Source of the DNA: Thermoflexales bacterium
GTDB taxonomy: Bacteria; Chloroflexota; Anaerolineae; B4-G1; DUEL01
Length of the DNA stretch: 52,056 nt
NCBI GenBank assembly: GCA_014360895.1
Contig: JACIWQ010000008.1
Location: forward strand, 1-52,056
Reading direction: 5' to 3'
The position numbers and the translations under genes were made by a program. Each line of letters begins with the position of its first letter. The stretch's first letter is position 1. Below the pieces are notes generated by a model. It did not search any database. It saw only the letters and a program-made list of their open reading frames with translations, and was not told where the DNA came from. Below, piece after piece: positions 5,849 through 50,757 of the stretch.

Positions 5849-8083
5849 ATGCCCGAACAGGTCGTTGGCAAATCCATCCCGAGGGTGGATGCCCGCGCGA
5901 AAGTGACCGGTGAGGCGAAGTACCCCGGCGACTTCTCCATGCCGGGGATGCTTCACGCCAAGATTTTCTTCGCCGGACGGCCCCACGCCCGCATCCTGAG
6001 CATTGATACCTCCGAGGCGGAGAAAGTCCCCGGCGTCGTCGCCATCTTCACCGCGAAGGACGTCCCCGTCAACGAGTACGGCCTGCAGATTCCCGACCAA
6101 CCCGTCCTCTGCGGGCCCGGCTCCGACAAGCCCGGCGCCGACGTCGTCCGCTGGGTGGGCGACCAGGTGGCCCTCGTCGTCGCCGAGACGGAGGAGGCGG
6201 CCGCCCGCGCCCGGGACCTCATCCGCGTGGAGTACCAGGACCTTCCCGTCATCACCGACCCTCTGGAGGCGATGAAGCCGGACGCCTATCCTCTCCATCC
6301 GCCCCGGGAGCCCAATCCTATCCACCCCGAAATCCGGACCGAGGGCAACTGGATCAGCCACCACCAGATTCGCAAGGGGGACGTGGAGGCCGCCTGGGCC
6401 GCCTGCGACGTCATCGTGGAGGCCGAGTACCGGCTCCCCTCCCAGGAGCACGCGTACCTCCAGCCGGAGGCCGGCCTGGCCTACATAGACGAGGAGGGCC
6501 GGGTGACCGTCATCGTCGCCGGGCAGTGGACGTGGGAGGACCAGCAGCAGATCGCCCACGCGCTGAACATCCCCCCGGAGCAGGTCCGGGTCATCTACCC
6601 CGCCATCGGCGGCGCCTTCGGCGGACGGGAGGACATGTCCGTCCAGATTGTCCTGGCCCTGGCGGCCTGGAAACTCCGTCGTCCGGTGAAGATTGTCTGG
6701 ACCCGGGAGGAGTCCATCATTGGGCACGGTAAGCGGCATCCGGTCTGGGCCCGCTGCAAGTGGGGCGCGACGCGGGAGGGGAAATTGGTGGCGGCCGAAG
6801 TGCGCGTCGTCGCCGACGGCGGCGCCTACTGCTACACCACCAACAAAGTAATGGGCAACCTCACCGTCACCTGCACCGGCCCCTACGAAATCCCCAACGT
6901 CAAGGTGGACGTGGACGCCTACTACACCAACAACCCGCCCAGCGCGGCGTTCCGGGGCTTCGGCTCGCCCCAGGGCATCTTCCTGGCCGAGATGCAGATG
7001 AACAAACTGGCCGAGGCGCTGGGGATGGACCCGGTGGAACTGCGGGTGCGCAACCTCCTGCGGGAGGGAAGCTTGACCGCGATGGGGACGCCGCTGCCGG
7101 GGGGTGTCAACCTGGTGGAGGTGGTGGAGCGGTGCGCGGCCGCTGCCGGATGGACGAAAATGGAGGCCGGATGGCGCAAGCCCCAACTCTCTCAGCCCTC
7201 CGGCCCGGTCCGGCGGGGCATCGGCTTCGCCGCGGGCTTCAAGAACGTCGGCTTCTCCTTCGGCTACCAGGAGAACTGCTGGGCGAAGGTGGAACTGCAC
7301 GGCGGAGCGGAGATAGAGAAGGCCGTCGTCTACATCGGCAGCGCCGAAGTGGGCCAGGGGGCCCACACCGTCATCGTCCAGATGGCGGCGGAGGCGTTGG
7401 GGATCCCGGTGGAGCGGGTCCGTCTGATCGCTTCCGATACGGCCACCAGTCCCGGCAGTTCCGGCTCCGCTTCCGCCTCCCGGACGACCTTTATGGCCGG
7501 CAACGCCATCCGGGGCGCGGCGGCGGCCGCGCTGGAGAAGTGGCGCGCGGAGGAGCGGCCCGCCGTCGCCGAATACACCTATCTGGCCCCGAAGACTACC
7601 CCCTTTGACCCCGAGACCGGCTACGGCACCCCCAACTTCGCCTACGCCTACGTCGCCGAGGCGGTGGAGGTGGAGGTGGATACCGAGACCGGAGAGATTC
7701 GCATCCCGCGCGTCGTCTGTGCCGACGATGTGGGAAAGGCGGTCAACCCGCAGCAGGTGGAGGGCCAGATAGAGGGCGGCGTGGTGATGGGCCTGGGCTG
7801 GGCCACCGTGGAGAACTTTATCGTCCGGGAGGGCTGGGTCCTGACGGACCGGCTCAGCACCTACCTGATCCCCACCGCGCTGGACGTGCCGGGGCGGGTG
7901 GAGCCGATCATCGTGGAGCGGCCCGACCCGCGCGGCCCGTGGGGGGCGCGGGGGCTTGGGGAGTTGCCGGTGATTCCCGCCGCGCCGGCCCTGGTCGCCG
8001 CCGTCCACGACGCCACGGGGGTCTGGTTCCACGAATTCCCGCTGACCCCGGAGCGGGTCTGGAGGGGCATTCGCCGCCCGTAG
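5849..8083 (+). CDS. Molybdenum hydroxylase large subunit (xanthine dehydrogenase/aldehyde oxidase family)
   Basis: The 744-residue protein has the aldehyde oxidase a/b hammerhead domain (about 15-130: RVDARAKVTGEAKYPGDF, then WVGDQVALVVAET) followed by the molybdopterin-binding domain. Markers are GGAFGGRED, AFRGFG at 367-372, VGQGAHT and the terminal GARGLGELP with the catalytic Glu705. The family hydroxylates heterocycles or aldehydes at a Mo-MCD centre. AFRGFG, rather than the VAYRCSFR loop, argues against CO dehydrogenase. Compared with the paralogue at 11715-14435 about 40 residues are missing between AAAAALEKW and EYTYLAP. No [2Fe-2S] or FAD subunit gene is adjacent, so partners must be elsewhere. 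Confidence 0.88.
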   Translation: MPEQVVGKSIPRVDARAKVTGEAKYPGDFSMPGMLHAKIFFAGRPHARILSIDTSEAEKVPGVVAIFTAKDVPVNEYGLQIPDQPVLCGPGSDKPGADVVRWVGDQVALVVAETEEAAARARDLIRVEYQDLPVITDPLEAMKPDAYPLHPPREPNPIHPEIRTEGNWISHHQIRKGDVEAAWAACDVIVEAEYRLPSQEHAYLQPEAGLAYIDEEGRVTVIVAGQWTWEDQQQIAHALNIPPEQVRVIYPAIGGAFGGREDMSVQIVLALAAWKLRRPVKIVWTREESIIGHGKRHPVWARCKWGATREGKLVAAEVRVVADGGAYCYTTNKVMGNLTVTCTGPYEIPNVKVDVDAYYTNNPPSAAFRGFGSPQGIFLAEMQMNKLAEALGMDPVELRVRNLLREGSLTAMGTPLPGGVNLVEVVERCAAAAGWTKMEAGWRKPQLSQPSGPVRRGIGFAAGFKNVGFSFGYQENCWAKVELHGGAEIEKAVVYIGSAEVGQGAHTVIVQMAAEALGIPVERVRLIASDTATSPGSSGSASASRTTFMAGNAIRGAAAAALEKWRAEERPAVAEYTYLAPKTTPFDPETGYGTPNFAYAYVAEAVEVEVDTETGEIRIPRVVCADDVGKAVNPQQVEGQIEGGVVMGLGWATVENFIVREGWVLTDRLSTYLIPTALDVPGRVEPIIVERPDPRGPWGARGLGELPVIPAAPALVAAVHDATGVWFHEFPLTPERVWRGIRRP

Positions 8084-20732: not shown

Positions 20733-21881
20733 ATGACGATGACGGTATCGCCTCCGCACCGACCGGACCCCTGGCGCCTGGTCTGGCGTACAGCCACGGG
20801 CAATATCCCGCTGGCGGTATGCCTTTTTGTACTGGCCTTCTACCTTCTACTTCTGGCCTGGATCCCCCAGTTCTCTTCCGGCCCGGCAACGACGGACCGA
20901 TGGCGGGTCCAGACCCGCTTCGGCCCCTGGACCGGCGCCATGTACCGGATGGGCCTCTTTTCCCTTGCCCATTCCCCGGTTGTCCTGGTGCTCCTTTCCC
21001 TGCTGGCATTCCTGCTGTTTCTGCGGACCGTAGAACTGGCAGAGGGGCTCCGTTCCCGCTTCCGCGATCCGGACTGCCGGAGGCATGGGTGGGTTGGGAC
21101 ATTCCCGCTTCTGGCCTCTCTGGGCGTGCTGGTTCTGCTGGCCGGGTTGCTGATCGGCCACCGGTGGGGATGGCGGGAAGAGGGCCTGGTCGGCCCAGAG
21201 ATCGCGCCATCTCCAGGCCATGGGGGAAGGACACCCCACCAATACCTCGTGGGTTTCGGGCCTTCGCTGACCATTCGGGCCGCCGATGATGCGGGCCGTC
21301 CCCTGAAACTCCAGCAAACCGCTCGCGATGAGGCGCAAACGGAACTGGTCCTGTATCTGACTCCTTCGGCTCCGGAGCGCTCGTTCGCCATACCGGAGAG
21401 CAGCTTGGTGGTCCGGGTGGGAGGCCGGGGCGACCTCTCTGCCCGCAGCCCGATTCTGGTGGAAATCTTCCGGGCCCCGGGAGGCGAACGGGTTCAGGAA
21501 GCGACGGTGGAGGGGGATTCATTCTCCGTAACGGTAGACGGGGTCCACCTGGAGATTTCCCGTCAACCCTATCCGATTCTGGCCCTGGTCTACGATCCGG
21601 GGCTCTGGCTGAAGTGGATGGGGCTGGTTCTGGGCGCCATCGGGCTGGTGGGCTGGCTGATCCTGGGCGGACAGAGCGGACGGATTCCGGGCCTGCTTCT
21701 CTCCGGACTTACCCTGCTGGTTGCCGGTCTGGCGGGCTCCAGTTTGGGGACTCGCGGCGCGCTGGGGGCGCTCCCGTTCCAGTTAGAAGCTACTGCCCTC
21801 TGGCTGGTGGGCCTGGGGGTCTGGCTGATCCGGCAAAAAGAGTCGCAGGGTCAGCGGGTCGGCGAGGCGCCGATGCGCTGA
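20733..21881 (+). CDS. ResB-like membrane protein (cytochrome c biogenesis type)
   Basis: From the ATG at 20733 the protein has 382 residues. Membrane helices are seen at about 25-45 (IPLAVCLFVLAFYLLLLAWI), 80-102, 125-143, and three near the C-terminus (KWMGLVLGAIGLVGWLIL, IPGLLLSGLTLLVAGL and ALWLVGLGVWLI). A soluble beta-rich domain at about 160-290 carries the ResB-like YDPGLWLKWMG transition. ResB/Ccs1 proteins work with CcsA in covalent heme attachment to cytochrome c; a clearer resB-ccsA pair lies at 37.6-39.6 kb. There is no good ribosome site at 20733, and a GTG at 20670 is an alternative start. It could be a divergent ResB with another task. Confidence 0.6.
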   Translation: MTMTVSPPHRPDPWRLVWRTATGNIPLAVCLFVLAFYLLLLAWIPQFSSGPATTDRWRVQTRFGPWTGAMYRMGLFSLAHSPVVLVLLSLLAFLLFLRTVELAEGLRSRFRDPDCRRHGWVGTFPLLASLGVLVLLAGLLIGHRWGWREEGLVGPEIAPSPGHGGRTPHQYLVGFGPSLTIRAADDAGRPLKLQQTARDEAQTELVLYLTPSAPERSFAIPESSLVVRVGGRGDLSARSPILVEIFRAPGGERVQEATVEGDSFSVTVDGVHLEISRQPYPILALVYDPGLWLKWMGLVLGAIGLVGWLILGGQSGRIPGLLLSGLTLLVAGLAGSSLGTRGALGALPFQLEATALWLVGLGVWLIRQKESQGQRVGEAPMR

Positions 21882-21904
21882 TTTTCCTTCCGACCGGTCG
21901 GGGG

Positions 21905-21933
21905 TTGACGGTTGCCCGACAATACAGTATACT
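21905..21933 (+). promoter_or_regulatory. Promoter of dnaN
   Basis: TTGACG (21905-21910), 17 bp, TATACT (21928-21933). Transcription would start near 21940, placing the whole 7-bp repeat run at 21949-22046 in the dnaN leader. Confidence 0.6.
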
Positions 21934-21948
21934 TCCAACAGAAGACAG

Positions 21949-22046
21949 CCGGAAGCAGGAAGCAGGAAGCCGGAAGCCGGAAGGCTGTCCCCTACCGGCT
22001 GTTCCCTACCGGCTGTTCCCTATCGGCTACCGGCTGTCCCTTACCA
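21949..22046 (+). repeat. Fourteen 7-bp units of two kinds in the dnaN leader
   Basis: In constant register the units are CCGGAAG, CAGGAAG, CAGGAAG, CCGGAAG, CCGGAAG, then GCTGTCC, CCTACCG, GCTGTTC, CCTACCG, GCTGTTC, CCTATCG, GCTACCG, GCTGTCC, CTTACCA. Although the unit changes, the period of seven is kept for 98 bp. GACAGCCGG at the left and CCGGCTGTC at the right are inverted, so a hairpin is possible. Confidence 0.85.
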
Positions 22047-22065
22047 GTCTACAGGAGGAGCGCCG

Positions 22066-23265
22066 ATGAAGGTTTCTTGCCTCCAGGAGAATCTGGCTCG
22101 CGGTCTGAGCGTTGCCGGACGGGCGATCTCGGCCCGGTCGGCCCTCCCCGTCCTCAGCCATATCCTTCTCGCCACCGATGCGGGACGACTCCGTCTCTCC
22201 TCCACCAATCTGGAGATGGGCATCCATTGCTGGATCGGCGGGCGGGTGGAAGAAGAAGGGGCGATCGCGGTCCCGGCCCGGACCATTATTGATCTGGTGA
22301 ACACGTTCCCTCCGGACCGGGTGGACCTGCGCCAGGAAGTGCGCACGATGACCCTCAACGTCCGCTGTGGACGGAGCGAGGCCAACATCAAGGGCTTGGA
22401 CGCGGTGGACTTTCCGCCCATTCCCACCCCGGAGGAAGGCGCGGCGGAGGGCATCCTGGTAGACCCGGAGACGTTGCGGACGGCCATCAACCAGGTCGCC
22501 TTTGCGGCCGCGACCGATGAGGCCCGCCCCACGCTGACCGGTGTCCTGATGCGCTGGGAGGCCACCCCGACCGGATCCACCCTGACCCTGGCCGCCGCCG
22601 ACGGCTACCGTCTGGCGGTCCGGCGGGTCCCGTTGCCCGAGAGCGAAGGAGTCCGCCCCTTCAGCGTCATCGTCCCGGCCCGCACCATGACCGAGTGGGC
22701 CCGAATCTGCGGGGAGATGGCGAAGGGCCGTGACGAGCGCCCCCCGGTCCGCATCACCTTTACCCCGGACGGAAACCGCATCCTCTTCCAGGGCCAGACC
22801 CCCCCGGATGCTCCGGTCCCCCTGGAAGTGGTTCTGGTCTCCCAACTGATTCCTGGCACCTTTCCGGACTACCAGCAACTGATCCCGCGCGACCGGAACA
22901 CCCGGCTCATCACGGGCACAGCGGAACTCCTCAAGGCCTGTCAGACGGCCCATATCTTTGCCCGTGAAAACACCAACTCCTTGCTCTTCCACGTCCATCC
23001 CGGTTCCGACCTGGAGCCAGGGCGGCTGGTCGTCTCCGCCACATCCGCCGAGACCGGGGACGACGTGACCGAACTGGACGCGGCGATAGAGGGGGCGCCG
23101 GTGGAGATTGCCTTCAATGTGAAGTTTATCCTGGACGCGCTGGGTGTGGTCAATTCGCCGCAGGTGATGGTGGACATCATCTCCCCCTCCAGCCCGGGCG
23201 TCATCCGACCCGTCGGCGGGGATGACTTCACCTACGTGGTTATGCCGATGACGCTGGAGCGGTGA
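22066..23265 (+). CDS. dnaN: DNA polymerase III sliding clamp (beta subunit)
   Basis: The 399-residue protein is DnaN, three repeats of the clamp fold. Recognisable parts are KVSCLQENLARGLSVAGRAI, SALPVLSHILLATDAGRLRL and LSSTNLEMGI in domain 1, LTLAAADGYRLAVRRVPLPE in domain 2, and FNVKFILDALGVVNSPQVMV with the terminal YVVMPMTLER in domain 3. It rings DNA and tethers polymerase. Neither dnaA nor recF is adjacent, so this is not the usual origin cluster. AGGAGGAG precedes the ATG. A TPR remnant follows. Confidence 0.95.
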   Translation: MKVSCLQENLARGLSVAGRAISARSALPVLSHILLATDAGRLRLSSTNLEMGIHCWIGGRVEEEGAIAVPARTIIDLVNTFPPDRVDLRQEVRTMTLNVRCGRSEANIKGLDAVDFPPIPTPEEGAAEGILVDPETLRTAINQVAFAAATDEARPTLTGVLMRWEATPTGSTLTLAAADGYRLAVRRVPLPESEGVRPFSVIVPARTMTEWARICGEMAKGRDERPPVRITFTPDGNRILFQGQTPPDAPVPLEVVLVSQLIPGTFPDYQQLIPRDRNTRLITGTAELLKACQTAHIFARENTNSLLFHVHPGSDLEPGRLVVSATSAETGDDVTELDAAIEGAPVEIAFNVKFILDALGVVNSPQVMVDIISPSSPGVIRPVGGDDFTYVVMPMTLER

Positions 23266-31154: not shown

Positions 31155-31161
31155 ATGACCG

Positions 31162-31210
31162 TAGACGGCAGTGGGTAGTGGGTAGTCGGCAGTGGGTAGG
31201 GGGTAGTGGG
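31162..31210 (+). repeat. Seven 7-bp units, YAGTSGG
   Basis: TAGACGG, CAGTGGG, TAGTGGG, TAGTCGG, CAGTGGG, TAGGGGG, TAGTGGG in unbroken register, between the divergent promoters of the GNAT unit and the CAP-domain gene. Confidence 0.9.
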
Positions 31211-31235
31211 CGGGGGTCGGCGGTCCGTAGTCCGG

Positions 31236-40939: not shown

Positions 40940-41068
40940 TTGAAAACCACGAAGGACGCAAAGGACACAAAGGTTTTCAGTTCCTTGAAATATCCCTTTG
41001 CGCCCTTTGTGTGCCCTTTGCGACCGTTGTGGCAAAAACCTCTGCGCTCTCGGCACCTCTGCGGTGAA
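40940..41068. repeat. Inverted 9-bp-periodic repeat region
   Basis: The left part AACCACGAAGGACGCAAAGG, then ACACAAAGG, pairs imperfectly with CCTTTGCGCCCTTTGTGTGC and further CTTTGCG/CTCTGCG units. It fills the gap before the acyl-CoA ligase gene. Confidence 0.75.
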
Positions 41069-48778: not shown

Positions 48779-50701
48779 TCACGGCCACGAAAACTCTCCC
48801 AGGTCCGCCATGTCCTCTCCGGTTTCCAGCTGCCGACGCTCCCCGGTCGCCGGGTCGTAGAGCAGAGCATAGAGATGATAGGTCCCTGGCGGCAGGTCCG
48901 GCGGGATGAGCAGTTCGTACCGGTTGGGCAGCACCTCTCCCGCCGGGAGCCGGGCCAGCGGCCAGTATTCGTTCAGGACCGGCCGGTCCTGCTGGGTGAC
49001 CGGACGCTCTCCCCGCCGCGCCGTCAGATGGACGGAGCCGGTGAGCGGTGGGCCGCTCTGCGGGGCCAACAGTTCCCAGAACAGATAGACCGGGACCAGG
49101 CGCTCCTCCCGATGGACCGCGACGCCCCGCAGGGCAATGCCGCCCTCAAAGACGGCGTCCAGTGCCTGCTCCGGCTCCAGAGGCCGGAAACGGGCCTCCT
49201 CCGGCAGCGCGTAGGCATACAGTCGCACCTCTCGCGTGTACAGCATCTCCACCCGGTACCCGCCGGCCTCCTCCAGCGTCCCCAGGATGACGCCGCCGGG
49301 GTCCACGGCGTCGTCCTGATAGAGGAGCAGCCAGTACCGACCGCCGTCAGGGGGACGGTGGGTCTCCAAAAGGCGCGCCCCCTCCTCCGGCCGCGTCCGC
49401 CGGCCGATCTCCGGCCCGGAGGTGAAGGGGACGGCCGTCCGATAGACCCGCAGGACCTGGATGCCGTGCGCCGCCACCGTCAGCCCCCGGTCCCCCTCCC
49501 GGGCGCGGGTGTTCAGCAGGGCCACCGCCTGGCGGAAATCGGGGTACCAGACGGTGCGCGAGGCCGCCAGCATGGTCGCCGTGGAGCGGGCCCCCCAGAG
49601 CAGGGCGACCGCCGCGATCCCCCCGCCCAGCACCAGGCCCGCGTACCGCCCCGCGCGCCCCGCCCGATGGGTTTCGCCGACCAGGGCAACCGTCCCCAGT
49701 ACGATCAGCGGGAGCGCCCAGAAGAGGTAGCGGGGTCCGTGGACGGGGCGAATCTGCCAGAAGGCGAACAGTCCCCCGCCTCCCAGAAGCAGCGAAGCCG
49801 CGCCGACCCGGCCCGGAAAGGAGCGAAACGCGGCCACCAGCCACCCCAGCACGCCGACCGCCAGCCACCCGTACCCCCAACCCGAAGGGAGGGCGCGGGC
49901 CAGGGGCGCCAACCAGTCCCGGGCCGTCAGCACATCCGGCCCCAGCTCGTTCAGGAAGACGGCGGGGGTCGGAGGAGAGATGGTGGCGAAACTGCCGAAA
50001 CCAACAGTCACCGGCAGCGCCCAGAGGCCCCACAGGGCTGCCGGTACGAAGGGGGTCGCCATCCACAGCGCGCTCTGCCAGCGCCCGGCCCGCCGCCGGA
50101 CGCGGGAGGGGAAGGCCATCAGTCCGGCCGCCGCCAGCGGGAAAAAGGAGAAATAGTGGGTCAGCAATGCGGCCGCTCCGGCCACCCCCCACAGCCAGAG
50201 GCGGTCTGAGAGCAACCCCAGAAGGGCCAGGAGGAGCCAGAATCCCCAGAGGGTGTACATCCGGGTGTCCCGCGCGTACGCCAGGAGCGTCGGATGGAAG
50301 GCCAGGAGGAAGGGGGCCAGCCAGCCCAGAAGCCATCCCGGACCGCGCCGTCCCCCGATGTGGCAGCTCAGCGGGGGGAGCGTCGCCAGCATCAACAGGG
50401 CCGCCGCCACGCTGGGGAAGCGCAACAGGGTCTCCAGCGCCCCCTCCAGCTCCAGGCCCGGCGCGTAGGGCCGTGCGCCGGCCGCCCACGCCCACCCTTT
50501 CAGCAGAAGGAGGTAGAGGGGGGGATACGGTTGGGCCGTGCGGAGAGTCCGCAGGACCTCGCCGGGAGAGAAATTCAGCGCCAGGTCGGCGTTGAAGATT
50601 TCGTCGTACCAGAAACTGGCCGCGCCCAGGCCCCGGAGGGCCACCGCCCAGAAAGCCATGAGCGCCGCGCAGGACAGGAAAAGGCGAAATTCACGCTTCA
50701 C
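48779..50701 (-). CDS. GT39/ArnT-like membrane glycosyltransferase with C-terminal soluble domain
   Basis: The 640-residue protein has about 11 membrane helices in the first 400 residues. The GT-C signature is in the first outer loop (LGAASFWYDEIFNADLAL with the acidic pair DE) and PYPPLYLLLLKGW follows, as in polyprenyl-phosphate-sugar-dependent transferases. Residues 420-640 form a soluble, beta-rich outer domain (PGTYHLYALLYDPATGERRQ). The GTG start and first codons MKRE lie in the 7-bp repeat, and no ribosome site is visible; since the first helix begins at residue 6, no later start is likely. The sugar and acceptor are unknown. It follows galK on the same strand. Confidence 0.8.
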   Translation of the reverse strand: MKREFRLFLSCAALMAFWAVALRGLGAASFWYDEIFNADLALNFSPGEVLRTLRTAQPYPPLYLLLLKGWAWAAGARPYAPGLELEGALETLLRFPSVAAALLMLATLPPLSCHIGGRRGPGWLLGWLAPFLLAFHPTLLAYARDTRMYTLWGFWLLLALLGLLSDRLWLWGVAGAAALLTHYFSFFPLAAAGLMAFPSRVRRRAGRWQSALWMATPFVPAALWGLWALPVTVGFGSFATISPPTPAVFLNELGPDVLTARDWLAPLARALPSGWGYGWLAVGVLGWLVAAFRSFPGRVGAASLLLGGGGLFAFWQIRPVHGPRYLFWALPLIVLGTVALVGETHRAGRAGRYAGLVLGGGIAAVALLWGARSTATMLAASRTVWYPDFRQAVALLNTRAREGDRGLTVAAHGIQVLRVYRTAVPFTSGPEIGRRTRPEEGARLLETHRPPDGGRYWLLLYQDDAVDPGGVILGTLEEAGGYRVEMLYTREVRLYAYALPEEARFRPLEPEQALDAVFEGGIALRGVAVHREERLVPVYLFWELLAPQSGPPLTGSVHLTARRGERPVTQQDRPVLNEYWPLARLPAGEVLPNRYELLIPPDLPPGTYHLYALLYDPATGERRQLETGEDMADLGEFSWP

Positions 50702-50757
50702 GTTTCACGCTTCACGCTTCACGTTTCACTTTTCACGTTTCACTCTTCACTCTTCAC
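50690..50757 (-). repeat. 7-bp repeat run (GYGTGAA / AAGTGAA) spanning galK end and GT39 start
   Basis: On the + strand the units are TTCACGC, TTCACGT, TTCACGC, TTCACGC, TTCACGT, TTCACTT, TTCACGT, TTCACTC, TTCACTC (63 bp) and a partial TTCAC. On the minus strand this is the same GCGTGAA/ACGTGAA unit as at 5356-5418. The last codons and the stop of galK and the GTG start of the glycosyltransferase are inside the run. Confidence 0.95.

Follow-up and report, generated by a model that had tools for sequence, protein, structure and literature searches.

A two-block heptanucleotide repeat upstream of dnaN in a Thermoflexales bacterium and heptamer arrays elsewhere in its genome

Heptanucleotides are the commonest long simple repeats in bacteria, as Mrazek et al. 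(2007) are cited in PMC4679880 and PMC4692102, and the same papers carry an existing proposal that polymerase slippage favors seven nucleotides by way of a 7-nucleotide polymerase contact. Here we analyze a run of 7-base units in the leader of dnaN, the gene of the DNA polymerase III beta clamp, in a 52,056-base stretch of an uncultured Thermoflexales bacterium (Chloroflexota, Anaerolineae; GenBank assembly GCA_014360895.1, contig JACIWQ010000008.1, positions 1 to 52,056 of the forward strand), hereafter the window. The dnaN array belongs to this already known kind of repeat, the heptanucleotide simple-sequence repeats. It is one of about 180 heptamer arrays in the genome and is absent from two close relatives, and it expanded recently in this lineage, most likely by repeat slippage. 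We think it probable that the array is a simple-sequence repeat grown and remodeled by slippage and tolerated between the promoter and the Shine-Dalgarno sequence.

The described systems resemble this locus in different respects. A 7-base unit over-represented in many genomes is what the long simple repeats of Mrazek et al. (2007) share with it, while several unit families in a single genome and strong species differences within one genus distinguish the present case. Array lengths also vary between relatives in Xanthomonas (GGGAATC) and Nostoc (GGGGA(T/C)T), and Xanthomonas carries about 180 heptamer repeats per genome, counted from two units up, with inverted convergent pairs (PMC4692102). 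Each of those genera has a single G-rich family, potentially able to form G-quadruplexes, whereas here there are many units, most of them lacking G-tracts; the units at dnaN (GGAAGCM and GGCTGTY/CCTAYCG) do not all contain a tract of at least three G. The TAACTGA repeats of Beggiatoaceae are likewise direct repeats of a heptamer, placed immediately before start codons, including those of essential genes, but canonical ribosome binding sites are rare there and the Shine-Dalgarno sequence is intact at dnaN (PMC4679880). Complementary heptamers form an RNA stem in the P6b stem-loop of the Nostoc trnL intron, where the class of unit has been replaced with the structure kept and length changes by whole units (PMC4476775). 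That stem is conserved and part of a group I intron, a constraint unlike anything shown for the dnaN leader. Heptanucleotide elements have also been noted in Geobacter metallireducens (PMC2700814).

The dnaN run and its promoter

The repeat described in the initial annotation proved real. Positions 21949-22046 comprise 98 bases (14 x 7), with five CMGGAAG units followed by nine units of the GCTGTYC/CCTAYCG type (Table 1). In the first block GGAAG recurs at 21951, 21958, 21965, 21972 and 21979, all of one residue modulo 7, while the second has GGCTG at 21983, 21997, 22011 and 22032 and CCTA at 21991, 22005 and 22019. Tandem Repeats Finder divided the run into 21947-21983 (period 7) and 21983-22028 (period 14). 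These head-to-tail 7-base units extend further than chance would allow, since the lag-7 segment score of 27 compares with a maximum of 16 (none at 18 or above) among 60 dinucleotide-preserving shuffles of the whole window, and the lag-14 score of 43 with a maximum of 15.

The further proposal that one register is held across the change of unit did not survive comparison with controls. Phase-0 matches amounted to 1.78 of 7 against 1.51 +/- 0.53 in column-permuted controls (P = 0.35), and GG falls on residue 6 modulo 7 in block 1 and on residue 3 in block 2. The blocks appear to share a frame because any two period-7 blocks that abut can be set in a common one. The idea that block 2 strictly copies block 1 in inverted form was rejected (the best inverted similarity was higher, 3.9 vs 2.4 of 7, with P = 0.13 under column permutation), and related units on the opposite strand are only suggestive, this P value not being significant by composition alone. 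Read on the minus strand, the block 2 units do resemble heptamers of other arrays in the genome.

The proposed promoter of dnaN was confirmed as the sole promoter-like site in 21500-22200, where 0.1 would be expected. Of the 14 loci examined in the order, 13 have TATACT upstream of dnaN, counting a possibly unrelated copy 249 bases away in genome G016. The run does lie downstream of the promoter and upstream of the ribosome-binding site, both of which are intact. Judged from this promoter, transcription would start a few bases past the -10 box, and therefore the whole array would be within the transcribed, untranslated leader. As a separate observation on dnaN in relatives (L016-L031), the -10 box in several f1 and f2 species is GTGTATACT with TTGT upstream, and the genus has TTGACG.

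Heptamer arrays in the genome and its congeners

Arrays were sampled from one set of stretches picked by matches to the dnaN array, and so biased, and from a second set which, like the window, was unselected for arrays. Matches to the dnaN array occur at 42 places in its own genome. Across 213,016 bases of unselected sequence there were 11 arrays, or about 180 when scaled to the 3.57 Mb genome. Heptamer arrays are present at many loci and are chiefly intergenic: 52 of the 55 sampled arrays were mostly non-coding, while 78% of the sampled sequence was called coding by our home-made gene caller (a hexamer score, not a published program). Many span the stop codon of one gene nearly to the start of the next.

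A scan of the window for periods 3-30 returned four period-7 arrays (with the multiples 14, 21 and 28), one period-6 array and no others. The units are diverse, including GTGAAAC, GGAAGCN, GGTAGTC, CGTATTC and GATGCGT among others, and higher-order repeats of 14 and 21 bases were visible in several arrays. Spacings of the commonest 4-mer inside arrays were multiples of 7 in 417 of 433 instances, with the remaining 16 off-register. The initial annotation had offered copying in 7-nucleotide steps as one explanation of the run, and in part this stands, as a period of 7 prevails across the genome regardless of unit sequence; a dedicated reverse-transcriptase-like machine is disfavored. A dedicated templated enzyme that adds 7-nucleotide units in the manner of telomerase would account for a period independent of unit sequence, but RVT_1 was unmatched in this 96%-complete genome and matched in three control genomes, units vary inside arrays, and off-register indels occur, so that we regard such an enzyme as very improbable. 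We also give little credence to a replisome of the genus that slips in 7-base steps irrespective of sequence, with a lineage-specific replisome change (a 43-residue insertion in DnaE) setting the number of arrays. If true, 7-base slippage by the replisome would yield arrays of unrelated units all with period 7.

The genome under study (G000) was compared with six congeners (G001-G006). At the same site, copy number differs between relatives, and for dnaN the difference is one of presence or absence. About ten GTGAA units at L068:11117 in G000 correspond to two in G002, and a long GTGAA array at L045:1935 again corresponds to two. G000 has a long array at L045:14623, G004 a shorter one and G002 none; at L045:16005 both G000 and G004 have an array where G002 has a terminator-like hairpin, and an inverted heptamer array of G000 at L047:605 corresponds to a hairpin in G002. 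The TTCAC arrays at position 50690 of the window have four different lengths in four congeners. At 31157 the unit turns over and the period of seven persists, with GTGGGTA in G000 and inverted GACCNCG/GTGGTCN in G002 and G004; G006 has no such array beside the conserved left flank. No period-7 array exceeded the threshold in 120 kb of G006.

Families of units are unevenly distributed among these genomes. Matches to GTGAANCGTGAANCGTGAA number 202 in G000, 128 in G001, 99 in G003, 93 in G004, 10 in G002 and 0 in both G005 and G006. Differences of this kind could reflect ectopic copying, by gene conversion or the insertion of short fragments, that spreads heptamer units from locus to locus, with local slippage only lengthening what was copied. 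This account concerns the origin of the units and overlaps with growth by slippage. It would fit the finding that only this species has GGAAGNN units at many loci, and that GTGAANC is abundant in G000, G001, G003 and G004, rare in G002 and absent in G005 and G006. Pairs of array consensus units also differed by at most one mismatch five times as often as letter-shuffled units did (0.162 vs 0.031), a comparison in which the share of GGAAG units is raised by stretches partly chosen by match to the dnaN array. Against dispersal, inspection by eye of the compared sites showed no shared flanks or target-site duplication, and at L068:11117 and L045:1935 G002 already has two copies of the array's unit. 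We consider ectopic copying unlikely.

Two of the arrays compared between species lie in coding sequence. One, of 174 bases (L040:11334-11507), adds a net 96 bases in frame relative to G002. The other encodes the DnaE insertion (DNA polymerase III alpha; L045:5808-10871, minus strand), 43 in-frame residues with EAGSGKW repeats at about 6909-7034, which is absent in G002, G004 and G006. By alignment the insertion immediately precedes the helix-hairpin-helix region, close to residue 884 of the solved enzyme structure 2hpi. This DnaE also carries an intein (intein_Nterm, TIGR01445, residues 784-862), the end of which reads VHN and is followed by SHAATYG.

Table 1. Features of the dnaN locus and other heptamer arrays in the window
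Feature	Position	Strand	Remarks
dnaN promoter, TTGACG-17-TATACT	21905..21933	+	full form in four congeners (G000, G002, G004, G006)
Block 1: GACAGCC, then GGAAGCA/GGAAGCC heptamers	21944..21982	+	weak unit ACAGAAG at 21938
Block 2: GGCTGTY CCCTAYC heptamers	21983..22046	+	minus-strand reading GGTAGGG/RACAGCC
Predicted imperfect hairpin of leader RNA	21944..22038	+	about 4 nucleotides past the transcription start inferred from the -10 box
dnaN Shine-Dalgarno, AGGAGGA	22053..22059	+	conserved in congeners
dnaN, DNA polymerase III beta clamp, 399 amino acids	22066..23265	+	PF00712, PF02767, PF02768
Heptamer array CGTGAAA/CGTAAAA	5350..5421	+	absent in G002
Heptamer array GTGGGTA	31157..31234	+	divergent intergenic region
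Heptamer array TTCACGY	50690..50757	-	G002, G004 and G006 carry shorter TTCAC arrays here

Leader length and RNA folding

The DnaN proteins of G002 and G006 are 91-92% identical to that of G000, and the array is absent from both of their leaders, which measure 41 and 40 bases, respectively, from the -10 box to the start codon. It had been suggested that the constraint acts on leader length modulo 7, and at the species level this was refuted. In twelve species (leaving aside G016, for its doubtful TATACT), the leaders past the -10 box were 132, 128, 40, 41, 42, 41, 41, 84, 59, 53, 33 and 46 bases long, with residues modulo 7 of 6, 2, 5, 6, 0, 6, 6, 0, 3, 4, 5 and 4, or six of the seven classes. 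The leader of G000 exceeds that of G002 by 91 bases (13 x 7), as the constraint would have it, but it exceeds those of G006 and G004 by 92 and 4, and the array-less leaders of the close pair G002 and G006 differ by 1 base. Relatives thus show indels that are not multiples of seven, which the initial annotation had named as refuting its idea. Among all arrays compared between species, 3 of 16 net length differences were multiples of 7, with about 2 expected, and both coding cases changed by a multiple of 3 (+129 in DnaE and +96 at L040:11334), keeping the frame and not the heptad. Since sister species do without the dnaN array, its length modulo 7 is not a feature that dnaN conserves, and we assign the proposed constraint almost no probability.

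The ends of the run, GACAGCCGG and CCGGCTGTC, are able to pair as first claimed, and folding of 21940-22050 gave -49.2 kcal/mol (z = -3.18), with none of 200 shuffles as stable. When the flanks were included (21934-22068), z was only -1.88. No curated Rfam model reached its gathering score against the run, the one microRNA model listed scoring 19.1 vs 100. Selection might keep the two-block hairpin as a 5'-terminal stem that stabilizes dnaN mRNA or tunes translation, whatever its sequence. Its predicted start about 4 nucleotides from the inferred 5' end is consistent with this, as is the leader of G004, where an unrelated element also folds (z = -5.70) into a hairpin that starts at about the same point. 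The leaders of G002 and G006, however, are short and have no such stem, and hairpins (z < -2) were predicted for 12 of 53 arrays against 13 of 60 length-matched random segments of the genome. A selected stem accordingly appears improbable, and the idea that the arrays in general form hairpins was rejected, there being no excess over the random segments.

The element of G004 (L084:1460-1530) is inverted and built of 9-base CACAAAGRA-type units unrelated to the heptamers of G000. The window itself has similar 9-base units at 40948, 44332 and 44406.

Slippage and the period of seven

In the reading we favor, replication slippage would gain and lose whole 7-base units, with occasional off-register indels, as length variation at orthologous sites suggests. 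The period of seven would then be kept because slippage adds and removes whole units, and not through a modulo-7 constraint on leader length. Block 2 probably originated when the template was switched locally or when a second family of units met the first, and either origin would give a transcript able to fold into the predicted 5'-terminal hairpin. Tolerance of the array may be owed to its position, which leaves promoter and Shine-Dalgarno sequence intact. Seeds in the ancestral leader were also considered, since AGCCGGATG in G002 resembles AGCCGGAAG; by a rough estimate this is likely a chance hit and is not claimed.

Several observations weigh against this reading. Matches to GGAAGNNGGAAGNNGGAAG number 114 in G000 and at most 3 in any of the six congeners, which local slippage leaves unexplained, and the difference between the G000 and G002 leaders happens to be a multiple of seven. 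The slippage process is itself deduced from comparison between species. MutS1 is present in the genome, and therefore loss of MutS, and with it of mismatch repair, is ruled out as the cause of the arrays. Slippage also does not explain why the period is almost exclusively seven, or why this species alone has GGAAGNN units expanded at numerous loci.

The comparison removes a claimed modulo-7 constraint on the leader of a replication gene. It also brings forward a genus with strong differences in heptamer arrays between sister species, in which empty, short and long orthologous sites stand side by side. Comparison of strains within this genus would make directly testable why bacterial repeats favor seven, and whether local slippage or dispersal gives rise to them.
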